The notes under the pieces are model-generated. The model made no database searches and was not told the DNA's origin. It was given only the letters and a program-made list of their open reading frames with translations. A program made the position numbers and the translations under genes. A stretch of 64,000 nt of DNA. Source: Bacteroidales bacterium UBA5382 (GTDB taxonomy: Bacteria; Bacteroidota; Bacteroidia; Bacteroidales; Dysgonomonadaceae). Of this stretch, positions 1-5,345 are shown piece by piece (position 1 is the stretch's first letter; every line of letters starts with the position of its first letter). The stretch spans positions 39,945 to 103,944 of the forward strand of contig DHOU01000010.1 of assembly GCA_002409745.1 (NCBI GenBank), in the 5' to 3' direction.

Positions 1-130
1 CCCCCGTTAATCTTTATTAACAAAAGGATTGCAAAAGAATCTCTTTCCGCTAGAATAATATTGTTCAAATCTTTTTTTATCATTGTTCTTCAAGATCAAA
101 ATGATCCGTTCTCTCAAAATTTTCACTATA

Positions 131-167
131 AAACAAAAAACTCCACCGAAGCTATATCGGTGGAGTT
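131..167 (-). terminator. Intrinsic terminator / candidate attenuator
   Basis: A perfect 11-bp inverted repeat (139-149 and 157-167, arm AACTCCACCGA) with a 7-nt loop is followed on the minus strand by TTTTTTGTTTT. It lies 26 nt downstream of the stop codon of the Cys-rich leader ORF at 193-294. No minus-strand gene lies between it and the window edge, so it may attenuate a gene beyond position 1. Confidence 0.75.
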
Positions 168-192
168 CTCTATATGTAAATATAATTCTTCC

Positions 193-294
193 CTACCCGA
201 TAGGACTTCGTCTTATCGACATACACATACAGCAACACATCATCGAAACTGTATTTTTGTTTGTACCGGCAATCGGGAAGAAATATTTATTCAT
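193..294 (-). CDS. Candidate Cys/Met-rich leader peptide (33 aa)
   Basis: This is a short ATG-to-TAG reading frame of 33 codons, too short for ordinary gene calling. Residues 17-26 read SMMCCCMCMS, a dense run of Cys and Met codons, and the peptide ends RRSPIG. A well-formed minus-strand promoter (379-409) lies about 80 nt upstream of the ATG and an intrinsic terminator (131-167) begins 26 nt after the stop. The order promoter, short peptide rich in one or two amino acids, terminator is the classical layout of a transcription attenuator. The RNA of codons 4-6 (TTCTTCCC) can pair with GGGAAGAA just after the stop codon, which could form an alternative structure. The regulated gene would be off the left edge. 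I infer sensing of cysteine, methionine or their tRNAs; no family match is claimed. It could instead be a free small protein or chance. Confidence 0.5.
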   Translation of the reverse strand: MNKYFFPIAGTNKNTVSMMCCCMCMSIRRSPIG

Positions 295-378
295 TATTAT
301 ATAAATCTATAACCTATTAAAAACTTACAAAGAAAAATCGTATAACAATCTTTAATTTGAATTCATTAATAATTTTGA

Positions 379-409
379 CAAAAGTAATGGATAATCGACA
401 TCGCATCAA
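379..409 (-). promoter_or_regulatory. Bacteroidota-type promoter for the leader RNA
   Basis: On the minus strand, TTG (407-409) is separated by 20 nt from TACTTTTG (379-386), matching the phylum consensus TTG-N19-21-TAnnTTTG. The predicted transcript would start near 372 and run through the Cys-rich leader ORF into the terminator at 131-167. Confidence 0.6.
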
Positions 410-611
410 TACCACAATTATGGTATTTTGATACTTTCAAGGCGTTTTTCATAAGAAAAGATATAAAGAGTTTGAGAATAGGAGATCTTTAAAAAGAAGT
501 AATAGACTCGTAATCAATCGATGAATACGGAACGCTGAAAATTAGAGACCGTTGATTATTTTTCAACCGTAAACTCAATATTTATCTATAAGTGACAAAA
601 TTCTTTAATTG
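410..611. other. Intergenic, nothing recognised
   Basis: This AT-rich stretch separates the 3' end of the wbqC-like gene from the minus-strand leader promoter. I see no convincing ORF, repeat or RNA in it. Confidence 0.5.
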
Positions 612-1253
612 TCATCCTAAATACAACCGGGCCTCGTTGCCCATATTGAAAAGCAAGTCAATGATGCTCAGATTTTCCAGAAATCCCTGTTTTTGTTTGA
701 AAACCTGATAATAAGGTTTCGGGAAAAAGCCGGTTTCGCCCGAGTGCAAAGGCTGCTTCGGATCGATTGTCTCGCGATAATCAATCCATCCGGACGGAAC
801 AGCGTCGATATACGACGGCGTATAGATAACCGGCTCCGGAATACCGAGCAAACGGCACACCAATAAACGCAACTCCTCGTTGAAATCATGAAGAAAAGGA
901 TATGTCTTATGATAGAACGGCTCGAAATCATCGCGATAATAATCGAAAAACGGCGTGGAATTATAAGCCGATACAAGGGCATTCCAATGCAGATGCCGCC
1001 AATTTCCATGATCGGCAATGCGCATATCTTTCATCGCCGTGTGCGGCGAAGGAGGCTTTTCGACGGGTACGCTCAATGCCATCGGGCCGTTTGCCCCGGC
1101 TATGACACACCGGTTCCGGTACGACTGCTTTCGATAGGTATCGTGCACTTCCATCCAGACCTCCCGCGCACGAAACAGCACGCTGTAGTATTCAATGGGG
1201 GCTAAATAGAATGAAGAGAGAAGAACGGTTCCCGCCGAACCTGTTCCCGTCAT
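612..1253 (-). CDS. WbqC-like family protein
   Basis: The product is about 213 residues and resembles the WbqC-like family, whose founding member lies in an O-antigen cluster; the biochemical role is not settled. Supporting features are the N-terminal LLSSFYLAPIEYYS segment, the TYRKQSYRNRC motif and the closing GFLENLSIIDLLFNMG block typical of Bacteroidota members. The frame is open further upstream to 1385, but that part lies inside lepB. I chose the ATG at 1253 because it overlaps the lepB stop as ATGA, a sign of translational coupling. It is the last gene of the dapB-lepB-wbqC operon, and this adjacency is common in Bacteroidales. Assignment to the family is fairly sure; function is not. 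Confidence 0.85.
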   Translation of the reverse strand: MTGTGSAGTVLLSSFYLAPIEYYSVLFRAREVWMEVHDTYRKQSYRNRCVIAGANGPMALSVPVEKPPSPHTAMKDMRIADHGNWRHLHWNALVSAYNSTPFFDYYRDDFEPFYHKTYPFLHDFNEELRLLVCRLLGIPEPVIYTPSYIDAVPSGWIDYRETIDPKQPLHSGETGFFPKPYYQVFKQKQGFLENLSIIDLLFNMGNEARLYLG

Positions 1254-2722
1254 GCGGGTATTTTCGCACTTCGGAACAACCGTTTCCAACGGATCTTCCC
1301 ATTGAACCACCCTTTGTCTTTTTCTAACGAAAGCCAGATGAGAATCGGACGGCCTACGATATGATCTTCCGGCACAAAACCCCATACGCGGGAGTCGGCC
1401 GAATTATGACGGTTATCCCCCATCATAAAGTAATAATCCAAGGAAAAGGTATAAGAATCGACCTGTTGACCATTTATAGATACTTTTCCGTCGCGGTATT
1501 CCAACTGATTCCCCTCGTAGTTCTCGATACAGCGGCGGTAAGCAGCGACTTTAAAGTCGACATCGGTATCGAACGTAACCGTTTGCCCTTTTTTAGGGAT
1601 CCATAGCGGCCCGAAGGTATCGCGGGTCCAGCCGGTTTCATAGCCGAACGGATAATAGGACGACATTCCGACTTGTTCTTTTTCCTTGATGATGTTCCAT
1701 ATAAATGGTTTCGATTTTAATTTATCCACCATTTCGTTGGTCATGGGAATATTATAATAAAGCCTTCCGTTATTTCCATTGCGTTGTTGAAGACTGTACA
1801 AAGCCATATTAAGACTATCTAATTGGGAGAGATCCTGCATCTTGAGCATCGATTGTCCGTACCCATTGTCCGAAAAGTAATCGCCAATATTGATTCCGAT
1901 CTCTTCAAACACCTGCGGCGATATCACCGAACCATCGGTTTGAATCATATAATTGTGTTGCGATAACTTGGGGTTCGGCTGGAATTGGCCATCGATAAAC
2001 ACACTATCGTTTCTTAAAGCGACGGTTTCGCCCGGCAGGCCGATACAACGCTTCACATAATTTTCGCGACGATCTACGGGACGGTACACAATATCGCCAT
2101 ACGTCCTTTTATCGGAGCGGATCCCTTCCCGGCCATTCGGGTTGTAGGAACTGAGCGTATAATAATCGACGCCCTGCATATTCAACGCTACGGTATCGCC
2201 CACCGGAAAATTGAAGACCACAATATCATTTCTTTTCACGTTTCCAAAGCCTTTCAACCGGCGGTATTTCCACTGCGGCTTATCCAGGTACGATTTGCCT
2301 CCGACAACCGGCATGGTGTGTTGCGCCAGCGGAAACGACAAGGGCGTCATCGGCGCACGAGGACCGTAACTAAGTTTACTGACCGCCAAAAAATCGCCCA
2401 CAAGCAACGACTTCTCCAGTGAAGAGGTCGGTATCTGATAGTTTTGGAAGAAAAAGACATTGATGAAATATACGGCAATCAATGCAAAAATAATCGCATC
2501 GACCCATTCCATTACTTTCCGGAACGACTTATTTTTGGACTTTTTCCAAAAAGTCCAGGGTATATATTTGGTAATATAGGCATCGAAGAAGAGCACGATA
2601 AGTAACAATATCCACGGGTTTCCGTACCATACGGAAAACAGCAGAATCGCGATAGTCCACACGGCAAACCAAATCCATTGACGACGTGTAGCTTTTGAAA
2701 ATCTTTCTTTGAGTGATATCAT
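1250..2722 (-). CDS. lepB: Signal peptidase I
   Basis: This inner-membrane serine protease removes signal peptides from exported proteins. The protein has 490 residues, larger than the roughly 320 of E. coli LepB, as is usual in Bacteroidota. Two hydrophobic segments lie near residues 17-50 and 73-92. The catalytic serine motif IPTSSLEKSLLVGD places Ser101 as nucleophile, and NYVKRCIGLPGE gives the general base Lys224. The C-terminal FMMGDNRHNSADSR box is also present. A long insertion separates the Ser and Lys boxes from the last box. It lies 25 nt downstream of dapB and overlaps the wbqC-like gene by four bases, so the three are probably cotranscribed. The start is an ATG before a basic N-terminus followed by the first membrane segment. 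Confidence 0.95.
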   Translation of the reverse strand: MISLKERFSKATRRQWIWFAVWTIAILLFSVWYGNPWILLLIVLFFDAYITKYIPWTFWKKSKNKSFRKVMEWVDAIIFALIAVYFINVFFFQNYQIPTSSLEKSLLVGDFLAVSKLSYGPRAPMTPLSFPLAQHTMPVVGGKSYLDKPQWKYRRLKGFGNVKRNDIVVFNFPVGDTVALNMQGVDYYTLSSYNPNGREGIRSDKRTYGDIVYRPVDRRENYVKRCIGLPGETVALRNDSVFIDGQFQPNPKLSQHNYMIQTDGSVISPQVFEEIGINIGDYFSDNGYGQSMLKMQDLSQLDSLNMALYSLQQRNGNNGRLYYNIPMTNEMVDKLKSKPFIWNIIKEKEQVGMSSYYPFGYETGWTRDTFGPLWIPKKGQTVTFDTDVDFKVAAYRRCIENYEGNQLEYRDGKVSINGQQVDSYTFSLDYYFMMGDNRHNSADSRVWGFVPEDHIVGRPILIWLSLEKDKGWFNGKIRWKRLFRSAKIPA

Positions 2723-2747
2723 ACGTTTTGTAAGTTTATAAACGGCA

Positions 2748-3464
2748 TTAAAAATTCAACAGATCCTGCATTCCTAAAAAGCCGTTTTTACCGGCCGTAA
2801 ACTCGGCGGCGACAACAGCTCCCAAGGCAAATCCCCGACGGCTCTTCGCCTCGTGTTCAATGCGGATCACATCTTCCTCCGACTCGTACGTAACGGCATG
2901 TATACCGGGAACTTCCTCTTTGCGAAAAGCCTTCACGAGCAATTGGTCTTCGCGATCGACACGATCGAGCTTCCACTCCCGCTTTCTATCGAGAGAAGCC
3001 AGAATCTCTTCGGCGAGCGTAATGGCCGTGCCGCTCGGAGCATCGAGTTTGTGAATGTGATGCGTTTCTTCAAGCCGGACATCATAGGCCGGAAAGCCGT
3101 TCATTATCTTGGCCAGATAACGGTTGACGACAAAAAAGATATTGACTCCCAAGCTGAAATTCGAGGCATAGAAGAAGGTGTTGCCTCCGTTTTGGCAAGC
3201 TTTCTTTATCTCATCGAGATGTTCGAGCCATCCGGTGGTTCCCGAAACAACGGGTACGCCGGCGGCAAATGCCCGGCGGTAATTTTGCAGCGCGCTTTGC
3301 GGAGAGGTAAACTCAATGGCTACATCCGCCCGCTTGAATTCGGGCGAATCGAATTTATTTTCTTCGTTCAAGTCAATAATACAGACAATGGTATGTCCTC
3401 TCTCCCGGGCGATCTTTTCGATTTCGTGCCCCATTTTACCGTAGCCGATCAGCGCAATATTCAT
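2748..3464 (-). CDS. dapB: 4-hydroxy-tetrahydrodipicolinate reductase
   Basis: DapB reduces the cyclic product of DapA with NAD(P)H in the lysine/diaminopimelate pathway, in the cytoplasm. The 238-residue protein shows the Rossmann motif GYGKMGHEI near residues 7-15, the GTTGW cofactor-site motif at 75-79, the active-site cluster ETHHIHKLDAPSGTA at 133-147 with His135/His136 and Lys139, and a short C-terminal NAD-fold closing segment. Length is slightly below that of the E. coli enzyme (273) and normal for Bacteroidales. It is the first gene of the operon with lepB and the wbqC-like gene. A promoter-like -7 box is 23 nt upstream of the ATG. Confidence 0.95.
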   Translation of the reverse strand: MNIALIGYGKMGHEIEKIARERGHTIVCIIDLNEENKFDSPEFKRADVAIEFTSPQSALQNYRRAFAAGVPVVSGTTGWLEHLDEIKKACQNGGNTFFYASNFSLGVNIFFVVNRYLAKIMNGFPAYDVRLEETHHIHKLDAPSGTAITLAEEILASLDRKREWKLDRVDREDQLLVKAFRKEEVPGIHAVTYESEEDVIRIEHEAKSRRGFALGAVVAAEFTAGKNGFLGMQDLLNF

Positions 3465-3486
3465 TCTTCTGTTTCATTTAGAACAA

Positions 3487-3494
3487 CAAAAATA
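3487..3494 (-). promoter_or_regulatory. Probable -7 element of the dapB operon
   Basis: TATTTTTG on the minus strand matches TAnnTTTG and lies 23 nt before the dapB ATG. A clear TTG at -33 was not found, so confidence is moderate. Confidence 0.4.
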
Positions 3495-3646
3495 TAAAAA
3501 ATACCTGTGTAAGTCGTTTTCAGACCGTTATTTGTTCTTAATTTTAAGGATTAACGGCCGGCATATCCGCAAAGTGTTATCGGCTTCGGCCCTTATCGCG
3601 AAGCAATATCGCCGAAGACATTATCACAAAGTCCTATCGAAGACCT

Positions 3647-4657
3647 TTACAACCAGCCCTTTTCTTTATACCAACGAACGGTTTCTTCCACCCCGCGGCG
3701 CAAAGGATATTCGGGTTTAAATGACAAACCGGTACGGATCGGTTCGATATCGCAATTCCAATTGCGCTGCTCCATAATGTTGTATTTATCCGTGTTGAAA
3801 GTGGAAGCCCTTCCCAGCAAGGAAGCCACCTTCTCACTCACCCATGCAGCGCCTTTCACCACCCCGAGCGGAATCTTCAATCGCAGCACGCGCTTTTTGT
3901 GCAAAACCTCCTGCACGATTCGGTTAAACTCCTCATCGGTATACACATCCCCGTCAGCGACGATATATTCGACTCTTTTCACCTGTTTTTCGATGCAAAG
4001 GAAAATAACCCGGGCAAGATCTTCGGAATAAATAAAAGTCAGGAGTTGCCGTTTCATGCCGGCGCCGACATTCAACCCGTTTTTTACGGATTTAACCAGG
4101 ATATAATAATCTTTATCGCGAGGGCCATACACGCCCGTGGGACGCAAGATGACATACGGGAAACCGGGGAGGCTCTTCAGGTAATTCTCGGCTTTGAGCT
4201 TGCTGCGTCCGTAAGTCGTGGTGGGATTAGGCTCTTGTTCGGCGCGAAGGGGCGCGTAATTTTCCTCATCGCCCTTGCCGATGGCACTCAGGCTACTCAT
4301 AAAAATAAAACTATCGGGAACCGTGCCGGTTTCGATTAGCGCATCGGCTAAATGGCGGGTGTATCCATCGTTTACCCTGTCGAAATCGGCTTTGTGCAGC
4401 GCTTTGGTCATCCCCGCAATATGCACGATGGCATCGAATCGACCGTTGTCGCGGGCAAACAGCCGCAATTGCTCCGTCAACTTTTCTTTATTGGAGTACG
4501 TAAGGTCGATAAACCGGATGCGGGGGTCTGTCAGATACTCTCGGCTGCTGGAAGTGCGAACTCCCGCCCAGGTTTCATATCCCAGTTCAAGGGCCTTGTC
4601 TACCACCGTGCTCCCGATAAAACCGCTGGCTCCGGTGATGAGTATTTTCTTTTGCAT
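3647..4657 (-). CDS. NAD-dependent epimerase/dehydratase (SDR family)
   Basis: This is a 336-residue extended short-chain dehydrogenase/reductase. The nucleotide-binding motif TGASGFIG is at residues 8-15, the catalytic Tyr149 and Lys153 sit in TYGRSK, and a serine pair at 121-122 (MSSLSAIG) fits the SDR triad. The substrate cannot be read from sequence: related proteins act on nucleotide sugars or on dihydroflavonol-like compounds. It is a single-gene unit: dapB lies 182 bp away and the upstream Rpn gene has its own promoter. The ATG is preceded by a promoter-like box. Confidence 0.85.
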   Translation of the reverse strand: MQKKILITGASGFIGSTVVDKALELGYETWAGVRTSSSREYLTDPRIRFIDLTYSNKEKLTEQLRLFARDNGRFDAIVHIAGMTKALHKADFDRVNDGYTRHLADALIETGTVPDSFIFMSSLSAIGKGDEENYAPLRAEQEPNPTTTYGRSKLKAENYLKSLPGFPYVILRPTGVYGPRDKDYYILVKSVKNGLNVGAGMKRQLLTFIYSEDLARVIFLCIEKQVKRVEYIVADGDVYTDEEFNRIVQEVLHKKRVLRLKIPLGVVKGAAWVSEKVASLLGRASTFNTDKYNIMEQRNWNCDIEPIRTGLSFKPEYPLRRGVEETVRWYKEKGWL

Positions 4658-4681
4658 AGACGTTTAATGGATTGTTTCATG

Positions 4682-4713
4682 CAAAAATAGTGGAATTATC
4701 TAAGATTGAGAAA
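4682..4713 (-). promoter_or_regulatory. Promoter of the SDR-family gene
   Basis: On the minus strand TTT (4711-4713), a 21-nt spacer and TATTTTTG (4682-4689) fit the Bacteroidota promoter. The start codon at 4657 would be about 18 nt from the predicted transcription start. Confidence 0.5.
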
Positions 4714-4730
4714 CGGGTGCTTCGATTTCT

Positions 4731-5345
4731 TTACAGCTTTTCGATTTCTTCGACAGACAGGCCGCTCACTTTAGAGATCACCTTCACCGGAATGCCCTCG
4801 GCTTTCATATTCCGCACCATTTCGATCTGCTTATTTCTTTCGCCTTTTGCCCGGCCTTCTGCTTCTCCTTCAGCTCTCCCTTCAGCCCGTCCTTCAGCTT
4901 TGCCTTCCCTCATTGCTTTCCGTTTTGCAGAATTAATCTGGGCTAACCGATCGCGGTAGGCCCTGATATCGGCATCGTACATTCTGCGCTCTTCCTTGCT
5001 CAAGGAAGTAAGATCAGCAATCTTCTCCAGTTTTTTAAAAATAGGCTTTTCCTCCTTAAAAGGAATTTCTTTTAATGTTTGCATATTCTTTAATGTATAA
5101 ATCCATTTATCCAAACCTGTCACACATTCCGTTTTCGTTTTCGAGAAAAACGGAAGTTCCACGAAAATAAAACGCAGCTTATCGCTGAATTGTTCGTGGG
5201 TATCACGGTCGGCAAGAATGACATCCGTCCGCAATTTGCCTTCCAACAAGTCATTCAAAAAGTCGAGCAGCAAATCTTTGCTGTCTTCCTGACCGAAAAT
5301 CCGCTTGAATGCTACGTCGTATGCGGGATTAACAAACCTTGTCAT
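4731..5345 (-). CDS. Rpn-family protein lacking its nuclease core
   Basis: The 204-residue product begins with the conserved FVNPAYDVAFKRIFG motif of Rpn / PD-(D/E)XK recombination-promoting nucleases and has the later family segment DTHEQFSDKLRFIFVELPFF. Typical members are about 280-300 residues, and the catalytic PD-(D/E)XK part (D followed by an E-x-Q strand) lies between these two segments. Here they are joined after only about a dozen residues, so an in-frame internal deletion of roughly 90 residues is inferred. The C-terminal part has a run of GRAEGRAEGEAEGRAKGE repeats from tandem short DNA repeats. It is probably inactive as a nuclease. It has its own -7 box and a good AAGGAAGA ribosome site, so it may still be expressed. 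Confidence 0.75.
   Translation of the reverse strand: MTRFVNPAYDVAFKRIFGQEDSKDLLLDFLNDLLEGKLRTDVILADRDTHEQFSDKLRFIFVELPFFSKTKTECVTGLDKWIYTLKNMQTLKEIPFKEEKPIFKKLEKIADLTSLSKEERRMYDADIRAYRDRLAQINSAKRKAMREGKAEGRAEGRAEGEAEGRAKGERNKQIEMVRNMKAEGIPVKVISKVSGLSVEEIEKL

Follow-up and report, generated by a model that had tools for sequence, protein, structure and literature searches.

In the classical trp, his and thr attenuators of Enterobacteria, the leader RNA can adopt the alternative helices 1:2, 2:3 and 3:4. The locus described here resembles them in its alternative helices, in the position of the stall codons upstream of region 2 and in that of the stop codon near region 2; it differs in that other amino acids are encoded, the stall codons are placed between region 1 and region 2 instead of within region 1, and tandem copies occur at several loci. 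Polycysteine short ORFs were reportedly described by Canestrari in 2020 as cysteine-responsive attenuators in mycobacteria. They share with our locus a short ORF with a Cys codon run located before sulfur amino acid genes; however, they have no conserved terminator hairpin (Rho has been proposed) and their Cys run lies near the stop codon, whereas the leader described here has an intrinsic terminator and a conserved alternative pairing, eight codons separate its run from the stop codon, Met codons are mixed in, the phylum is a different one, and outer-membrane uptake systems are among the targets.

Leaders with Cys runs have been described in Actinobacteria, according to the available part of the source without terminators (PMC1262725). 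The uORFC-8-2 motif, found upstream of cysS in Rhodobacterales and proposed to act by ribosome-mediated attenuation, likewise has Cys codons in tandem in an upstream ORF, and its end resembles a terminator; as far as the available part of that text goes, it differs in having a single target (cysS) and only two Cys codons, located inside the first stem, and in belonging to another phylum (PMC8632094). Within Bacteroidota, amino acid biosynthesis operons of Flavobacterium psychrophilum were said to show strong clues of leader-peptide attenuation in their upstream regions, the same general mechanism being proposed; in the portion of the text available, supplementary tables apart, neither the amino acids nor the peptides concerned are specified, and no Cys/Met leader is named (PMC9723704). 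Small ORFs in long 5' UTRs of Bacteroides thetaiotaomicron, a member of the same phylum, were likened to attenuator leader peptides, and the accessible part of that paper describes neither a Cys/Met leader nor a mechanism (PMC7366714). A search of open full texts found no Cys or Met leader described in Bacteroidota. The statement of a first-pass annotation of our locus that such control is little described in this phylum is a fair one, although not absolute in view of the F. psychrophilum clues, as far as these are given in the available part of the paper (PMC9723704).

The locus occupies positions 131..409, on the minus strand, of a 64-kb stretch of DNA that was analysed as a whole and is referred to below as the window. 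Its features are the following.

407..409, minus strand: TTG upstream promoter element (-33 type), by direct reading, 20 nt ahead of the TACTTTTG box
379..386, minus strand: TACTTTTG box, -7 type (TAnnTTTG), by direct reading
193..294, minus strand: leader peptide ORF MNKYFFPIAGTNKNTVSMMCCCMCMSIRRSPIG, 33 codons, from the ORF list
268..289, minus strand: region 1, ORF start, pairing with region 2 absent ribosome interference (MFE fold, duplex test)
220..243, minus strand: Met/Cys codon run MMCCCMCM, proposed stall codons; unique in the window, conserved in the aligned leaders
190..204, minus strand: region 2, CCTATCGGGTAGGGA, ORF end including the stop codon (193-195), antiterminator strand (alignment and pairing tests)
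155..160, minus strand: region 3, CCGATA, belonging to the 5' arm of the terminator and the edge of its loop; pairing partner of region 2 (pairing tests, simulated-stall fold)
133..173, minus strand: intrinsic terminator hairpin and T-run (regions 3:4), 17 pairs, 7-nt loop; paired with covariation across 15 leaders

The first-pass annotation had listed a consensus promoter, a 33-codon ORF with a Cys/Met run and a perfect intrinsic terminator, and all three are present as described; the TTG and TAnnTTTG elements are of the type of the Bacteroidota -33/-7 promoter consensus. Nowhere else in the six frames of the window do 12 residues contain 3 or more Cys together with 7 or more Cys+Met; no such place occurred in 60 dinucleotide shuffles of the window or in 5000 shuffles of positions 121-612. 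Rfam 15 covariance models gave no match in the leader region when run against window positions 1-5000, where the sole match (sR39, 17.8 bits against a gathering score of 50, 4253-4273) is a chance one outside the leader region. No NCBIfam leader peptide model matched the leader peptide of the window or of locus L072 at E up to 0.1; that of L074 had one chance match below the cut-off.

Anatomy, conservation, pairing and gene context, as read from the sequences, make it very probable that the leader of the window is a transcription attenuator of the trp/his type, mediated by the ribosome and with a peptide that would report the supply of sulfur amino acids. It combines a short ORF carrying a run of codons for what would be the regulated amino acid with an intrinsic terminator between this ORF and the structural genes. 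Translation, stalling and read-through, which we infer, would proceed as follows. With ample supply, the ribosome would pass the Cys/Met codons, reach the stop codon and cover region 2, whereupon the terminator (3:4) would form and transcription would stop before SusC/SusD. Under a shortage of Cys-tRNA (and/or Met-tRNA), it would stall on the Cys/Met codons, so that region 2 could pair with the terminator 5' arm (2:3) and RNA polymerase would read through. If the ORF were not translated at all, region 1 would hold region 2 (1:2), and the terminator would form.

The folding of the leader RNA (MFE -68.5 versus a shuffle mean of -45.3, z -5.3) is far better than that of shuffled sequences, partly because the start of the ORF pairs with the region around and after the stop codon. 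This pairing had been noticed in the first-pass annotation and is real; however, it represents the 1:2 anti-antiterminator helix, and the switch itself lies in a second pairing, between the ORF end and the terminator 5' arm. The 1:2 duplex was significant for the window (p = 0.007) and reached p ≤ 0.05 in only 8 of 15 leaders.

To compare the helices among leaders, the two leaders of L048, near-copies of those of L047, were omitted from the alignments, and L152, where no terminator was found by the script, was omitted from the duplex test; L174 and L193 were in neither, and in alignment A4 the region 2 of L146 is out of register by a few bases. Across 15 leaders, the terminator helix has 96.4% of cells paired and 18 both-side changes, above all 500 shuffles. 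The antiterminator helix formed by region 2 and the terminator 5' arm is paired in 92.7% of cells, versus 26-48% when the strands are slid; the 92.7% was reached by 2 of 500 shuffles. Its covariation (both-side changes in 4 cells, in 3 pairs) is not above shuffles, which reached the score in 63 and the number of both-side-change pairs in 39 of 500 cases. The duplex between upstream sequence and the 5' arm had a mean z of -1.68 in 22 leaders versus -0.03 in 33 ordinary terminators of the same loci (Mann-Whitney p 2e-6), although, the leaders being related, tests across them are not independent. Taken singly, 13 of 15 leaders were at p ≤ 0.05 in the narrow duplex test, and only 6 of 22 reached p 0.05 with the longer region; the antiterminator of the window is not significant alone (p 0.133 and 0.675, respectively), and this element of an attenuator is supported for the leaders as a group.

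The core of region 2 is GUAUCGG-like, exactly so in some leaders and CUAUCGG in the window, and is encoded as I-G, as V-S-D or V-L-D, and as Y-R (L147), i.e., in three frames, which indicates that it is kept as RNA. All gaps inside the Cys/Met run in the alignment of 23 leaders are multiples of three. Together, the frame shifts at region 2 and the gaps in threes point to an RNA constraint at region 2 and a codon constraint at the run. In 15 of 15 leaders, the main Cys run lies upstream of region 2, where a stalled ribosome would leave region 2 free, and the stop codon lies 8-18 nt after the start of region 2, where a ribosome would cover it. The Cys codons of the window are 22-34 nt before region 2. 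Eleven of the 15 leaders, the window's excepted, have extra Cys codons 1-6 nt before region 2; a ribosome stalled on these would cover region 2, and the simple picture does not explain them.

The leader was also folded with simulated ribosomes. With a ribosome on the Cys codons and before the 3' arm is made, the antiterminator is the MFE structure of the window leader (-14.5 and -11.8 kcal/mol); with a ribosome at the stop codon, there is almost no competing structure (-0.2) and then the terminator, and in the absence of a ribosome the fold contains both the terminator and the 1:2 helix. Once the 3' arm is present, the terminator is the MFE structure again even with a stalled ribosome, and therefore the switch must be kinetic, operating during transcription.

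The target operon was placed beyond the left edge by the first-pass annotation, and after N gaps it was found there, on the strand of the leader; a downstream gene on the opposite strand, named in advance as evidence against attenuation, is not what the locus contains.

1..132, minus strand: stretch leading to the target operon, its edge being a scaffold gap
L002:7765-7945: N gap of 181 bases, left of window position 1
L002:7404-7546: N gap of 143 bases, left of window position 1
L002:7645-7679, minus strand: second terminator-like hairpin and T-run, between gaps and SusC, with no readable Cys/Met ORF before it
L002:4174-7347, same strand as the leader: SusC, beyond the left window edge
L002:2680-4167, same strand as the leader: SusD, beyond the left window edge

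About 730 nt separate the terminator from the start of SusC. N accounts for 324 of them, and 20 consecutive C also lie in this interval, near the left edge of the window. Since the assembly is broken between leader and SusC, a second leader could be hidden there. SusC and SusD are followed by a glutamyl-tRNA-synthetase-like gene (identity by reading). Upstream of the leader, on the same strand, lies a WbqC-family gene, whose protein has a Prevotella relative, and then lepB- and dapB-like genes (by reading). This relative, the SusC/SusD pair and the promoter type all point to Bacteroidota. Compared with the proteins of the leader loci, the SusC of this genome is nearest to operon SusCs of genera g11, g7 and g12 (34.7-37.5%), followed by the second SusCs of those loci (28.5-31.2%) and the g6 operon SusCs (25-27%, or short matches only), and the SusD matches at 28-32%; the likeness is suggestive only, since the comparison set was picked around leaders.

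Two covariance models based on the window's leader and its relatives were used to find further leaders: R1, built from 15 leaders (alignment A2) and searched over 101 genomes of the family, and R2, built from 23 leaders and run on the window's own genome alone and later over the order. They revealed at least four Cys/Met leaders with terminators in this genome, the window's included. Two were found by R1 outside its training set. The first, MNSSFTVYSNSLRISLRAMCCCMSMDMPRLRYRKKKRIVGLF, precedes with its terminator cysteine synthase A (cysK; TIGR01139, 462.9 bits, cut-off 350.95) and O-acetylhomoserine sulfhydrylase (metY; TIGR01326, 662.3 bits, cut-off 495.1). The second, MNTNFSAYVPVCMGSEKMSCCMCMSMPQG (or with a start nine codons earlier), is likewise followed by a terminator and precedes metN (best match TIGR02314, 417.6, below the cut-off of 499.7) and metI (NF008049, 367, cut-off 212), with metQ 4.4 kb further on. 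The fourth leader, MVTTSIRIPGAYHTSFSVSMCCMCMPFFKGDIGWSM, was found by R2 (E 2.7e-6) and is followed by a terminator and genes for a DUF4369/thioredoxin protein, SusC and SusD. Among the 13 R2 matches in this genome at E up to 5, 4 have the run and 2 correspond to leaders already known, on their reverse strand; another two that were read contain no Cys/Met run.

The window's leader would accordingly be read as one of at least four in its genome, set before cysK-metY, metN-metI and two SusC/SusD systems, and the targets of this set include genes that make or import the encoded amino acids. The attenuation layout proposed in the first-pass annotation, with cysteine or methionine as the probable amino acid, gains support from the leaders before cysK, metY and the methionine ABC transporter, as well as from the conserved codons described below. 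A tiny gene rich in Cys/Met codons and an RNA stop hairpin would probably let this bacterium switch on genes of sulfur amino acid uptake and synthesis only under shortage. No metN-metI leader was found by threshold in 11 other family genomes with metI, which counts against a general rule, nor in G113 (about 350-480 nt upstream of the metN frame).

The DNA of the window's leader is matched in 5 of 61 genomes, its own included. The match in G014 is 29 bases long; in three matching genomes, which belong to g11, another genus of the same family, the leader match precedes the gene of a periplasmic binding protein.

L071:1715-2629 and homologues: periplasmic binding protein without a Pfam family, encoded at the head of SusC/SusD operons in several genera

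This protein, which has a weak PstS match below the cut-off, is predicted to take a cysteine or methionine source. It is absent from the window's genome at E 1e-20 and at 1e-15. A survey of the family on its basis gave matches in 26 of 101 genomes, at 27 places, and a Cys/Met-rich small ORF was detected by threshold upstream of the gene at 18 of these 27 loci. All ten g11 loci (L043-L052) have an internal run, and six of them (L045-L048, L050, L052) carry two leaders in tandem. The terminator is present in 17 of 17 cases, i.e., the 16 leaders of L043-L052 and the window's.

The other eight threshold loci belong to genera g6, g7 and g12 and have the run at or near the ORF end (GMRMSMCCC, CCPHMRMCMPC, ARMCMCCCMC), often with CC or CCC before the stop codon. 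Three more Cys/Met ORFs were found by eye (L053, L059, L060). No Cys/Met ORF was seen by eye upstream of the binding-protein gene at L064 and L066, nor by threshold at L067-L069, and L058 has only 43 nt of upstream sequence. The ORFs with a C-terminal run showed no clear terminator in folds and look more like the actinobacterial ones; this type is possibly Rho-dependent. The small ORFs before the binding-protein gene of L053-L057, L059-L063 and L065 often carry ATGCGAATG ahead of this terminal or near-terminal run. Several of them have C/T-rich sequence past the stop codon and lack a clear intrinsic terminator.

Scanning 16 larger loci (about 280 kb) on both strands yielded 15 matches between genes, all on the operon strand before a binding-protein or SusC gene, and one further match inside a coding frame; the scan flagged the window's own ORF as overlapping an artefact frame across the gap, and L081-L083 had no intergenic Cys/Met match. 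The operons have, with variation, the order binding protein, SusC, SusD, DUF4369/thioredoxin protein, M14 carboxypeptidase (tested in L071), and may also contain an M20 amidohydrolase and an SDF symporter (tested in L074). G426 departs from this order, with MetQ, an M14-like gene and two Cys/Met PLP enzymes as neighbours and no SusC. R1 matched 65 of 101 family genomes at E 0.05; among 16 of its places that were read, only L146-L152 have a Cys/Met run. Further g11 leaders precede a Cys/Met PLP enzyme (L149, tested; L151, by likeness) and second SusC/SusD sets (L148, L150, by reading). The remaining places read with R1, L153-L161, were rejected as leaders, since they have at most 4 Cys+Met in 12 residues and look like ordinary terminators.

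Loss of the Cys/Met codons among relatives, which would speak against attenuation, was not observed: the codons are kept while the rest of the peptide changes, as in MNKYFFPIAGTNKNTVSMMCCCMCMSIRRSPIG, MTDRQIASTMMCCCYMGMCMFIKRCRIGNR and VKVYTKMCCCKMVMCMTIRNCCIGIV. In the 24 listed leader peptides, for which the start codons were chosen by us, both Cys codons are in use (100 TGT and 31 TGC from the run onward). In 14 of 24 leaders, the 100 nt ahead of the chosen start contain a TAnnTTTG box; this interval lacks one in all six second leaders of tandems and in four others.

Over the order, R2 matched 9 of 388 genomes, with nine weak places in 8 genomes outside the window's own. Only one of these, L193, in another family, has a Cys run, MLKRIVKHMFCCCMASQTGLCFDLYD, with a terminator, and it directly precedes a serine O-acetyltransferase-like gene (TIGR01172, 143.3 bits, below the cut-off of 210.65). 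At another weak match, L192 (G059:C7:9940-10065), a WCCMW-like reading is followed by a terminator and a gene without assigned function. The 30 loci at which homologues of the binding protein in other families were examined include the G005 place a second time. In three families, small ORFs with Cys-Cys or more precede the gene (RMRMCCCCNE, MKRCC, GRCCQ; loci L089, L090 and L088, with L088 and the MKRCC of L090 found by eye). One family is without such an ORF, and none was found at L087; L091 gave an ambiguous picture, L092, L099, L103 and L105 have low-scoring matches at least 500 nt upstream, and no ORF of this kind turned up at the other loci. L090 has another small ORF besides the nearer MKRCC one; it lies 459-600 nt before the binding-protein gene, and its last seven codons are for Cys (NDSLCCCCCCC). 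A loose sequence pattern with 3 mismatches was rejected as unspecific in the window's genome (596 matches versus 389 in a reversed control). A strict pattern, in 393 genomes of the order (few of the window's family and no g11), found the window's own copy and one match in G315, which was discarded because its halves are in different frames and no small Cys-run ORF is listed there.

The amino acid sensed may be Cys, Met or both. A variant of the attenuator in which cysteine alone is sensed and the Met codons serve, e.g., for spacing or re-initiation is plausible, though less likely than not: the Met part shrinks and Cys-Cys stays in the candidate leaders of other families, and the terminal CC or CCC of g6, g7 and g12 fits it as well, whereas each of the 24 family leaders has 4-10 Met (the initiator counted where it is ATG) and one target is a methionine transporter. 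A different signal would be involved if the nascent Cys/Met-rich chain arrested translation on binding a metal, such as copper, or a thiol oxidant inside the ribosome exit tunnel, the RNA switch then being the same. Cys/Met motifs are typical of Cu(I) ligands, and thioredoxin-fold proteins occur in some operons; however, no metal gene is among the downstream genes tested, which include cysK, metY, metN, metI, metQ and Cys/Met PLP enzymes, C and M differ widely in order and spacing, and Cys predominates in some of the candidate leaders from other families (MKRCC, RMRMCCCCNE), which makes such sensing quite unlikely.

An incidental ORF, in what is either a free small RNA or the 3' end of wbqC mRNA, would account for a stable fold and a terminator that come after wbqC on the same strand, and is nevertheless highly improbable, given the recurrence of Cys/Met ORFs before operons of related function in several genera, the run gaps in threes while region 2 shifts frame, and the lack of an Rfam match at the leader. 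No more credible is a small metallothionein-like protein acting as such: the ORF is open and Cys-rich, but the peptide outside the run varies strongly, and the terminator and second pairing are kept.

If the attenuator reading is extended beyond this genome, one could propose a Bacteroidales-wide sulfur amino acid attenuation regulon, in which Cys/Met leaders, often in tandem, gate TonB-dependent SusC/SusD outer-membrane systems together with Cys/Met synthesis and import. Of the two forms that this control would take, one would use an intrinsic terminator, and the other would have a Cys run at the ORF end and no clear terminator (perhaps Rho). The SusC/SusD pairs would then import Cys/Met-bearing peptides, not glycans. 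We consider this wider proposal about as likely as not; import of sulfur amino acid sources by these pairs is in itself something we infer. While the general kind of control is known, the mixed Cys/Met run, its occurrence in Bacteroidota, the several operons in one genome, the tandem copies and the outer-membrane uptake targets appear to be new. In this phylum, with its few descriptions of leader-peptide attenuation, such a leader could serve as a sequence-readable sign that genes are controlled by sulfur amino acids. It would also name cysteine/methionine sources as the likely class of nutrient for SusC/SusD systems otherwise annotated as glycan importers.

Elsewhere in the window, an ORF at 4731-5345 on the minus strand presumably resembles the Rpn/PD-(D/E)XK nuclease-transposase family, and it contains a stretch rich in Gly, Ala, Glu and Arg.
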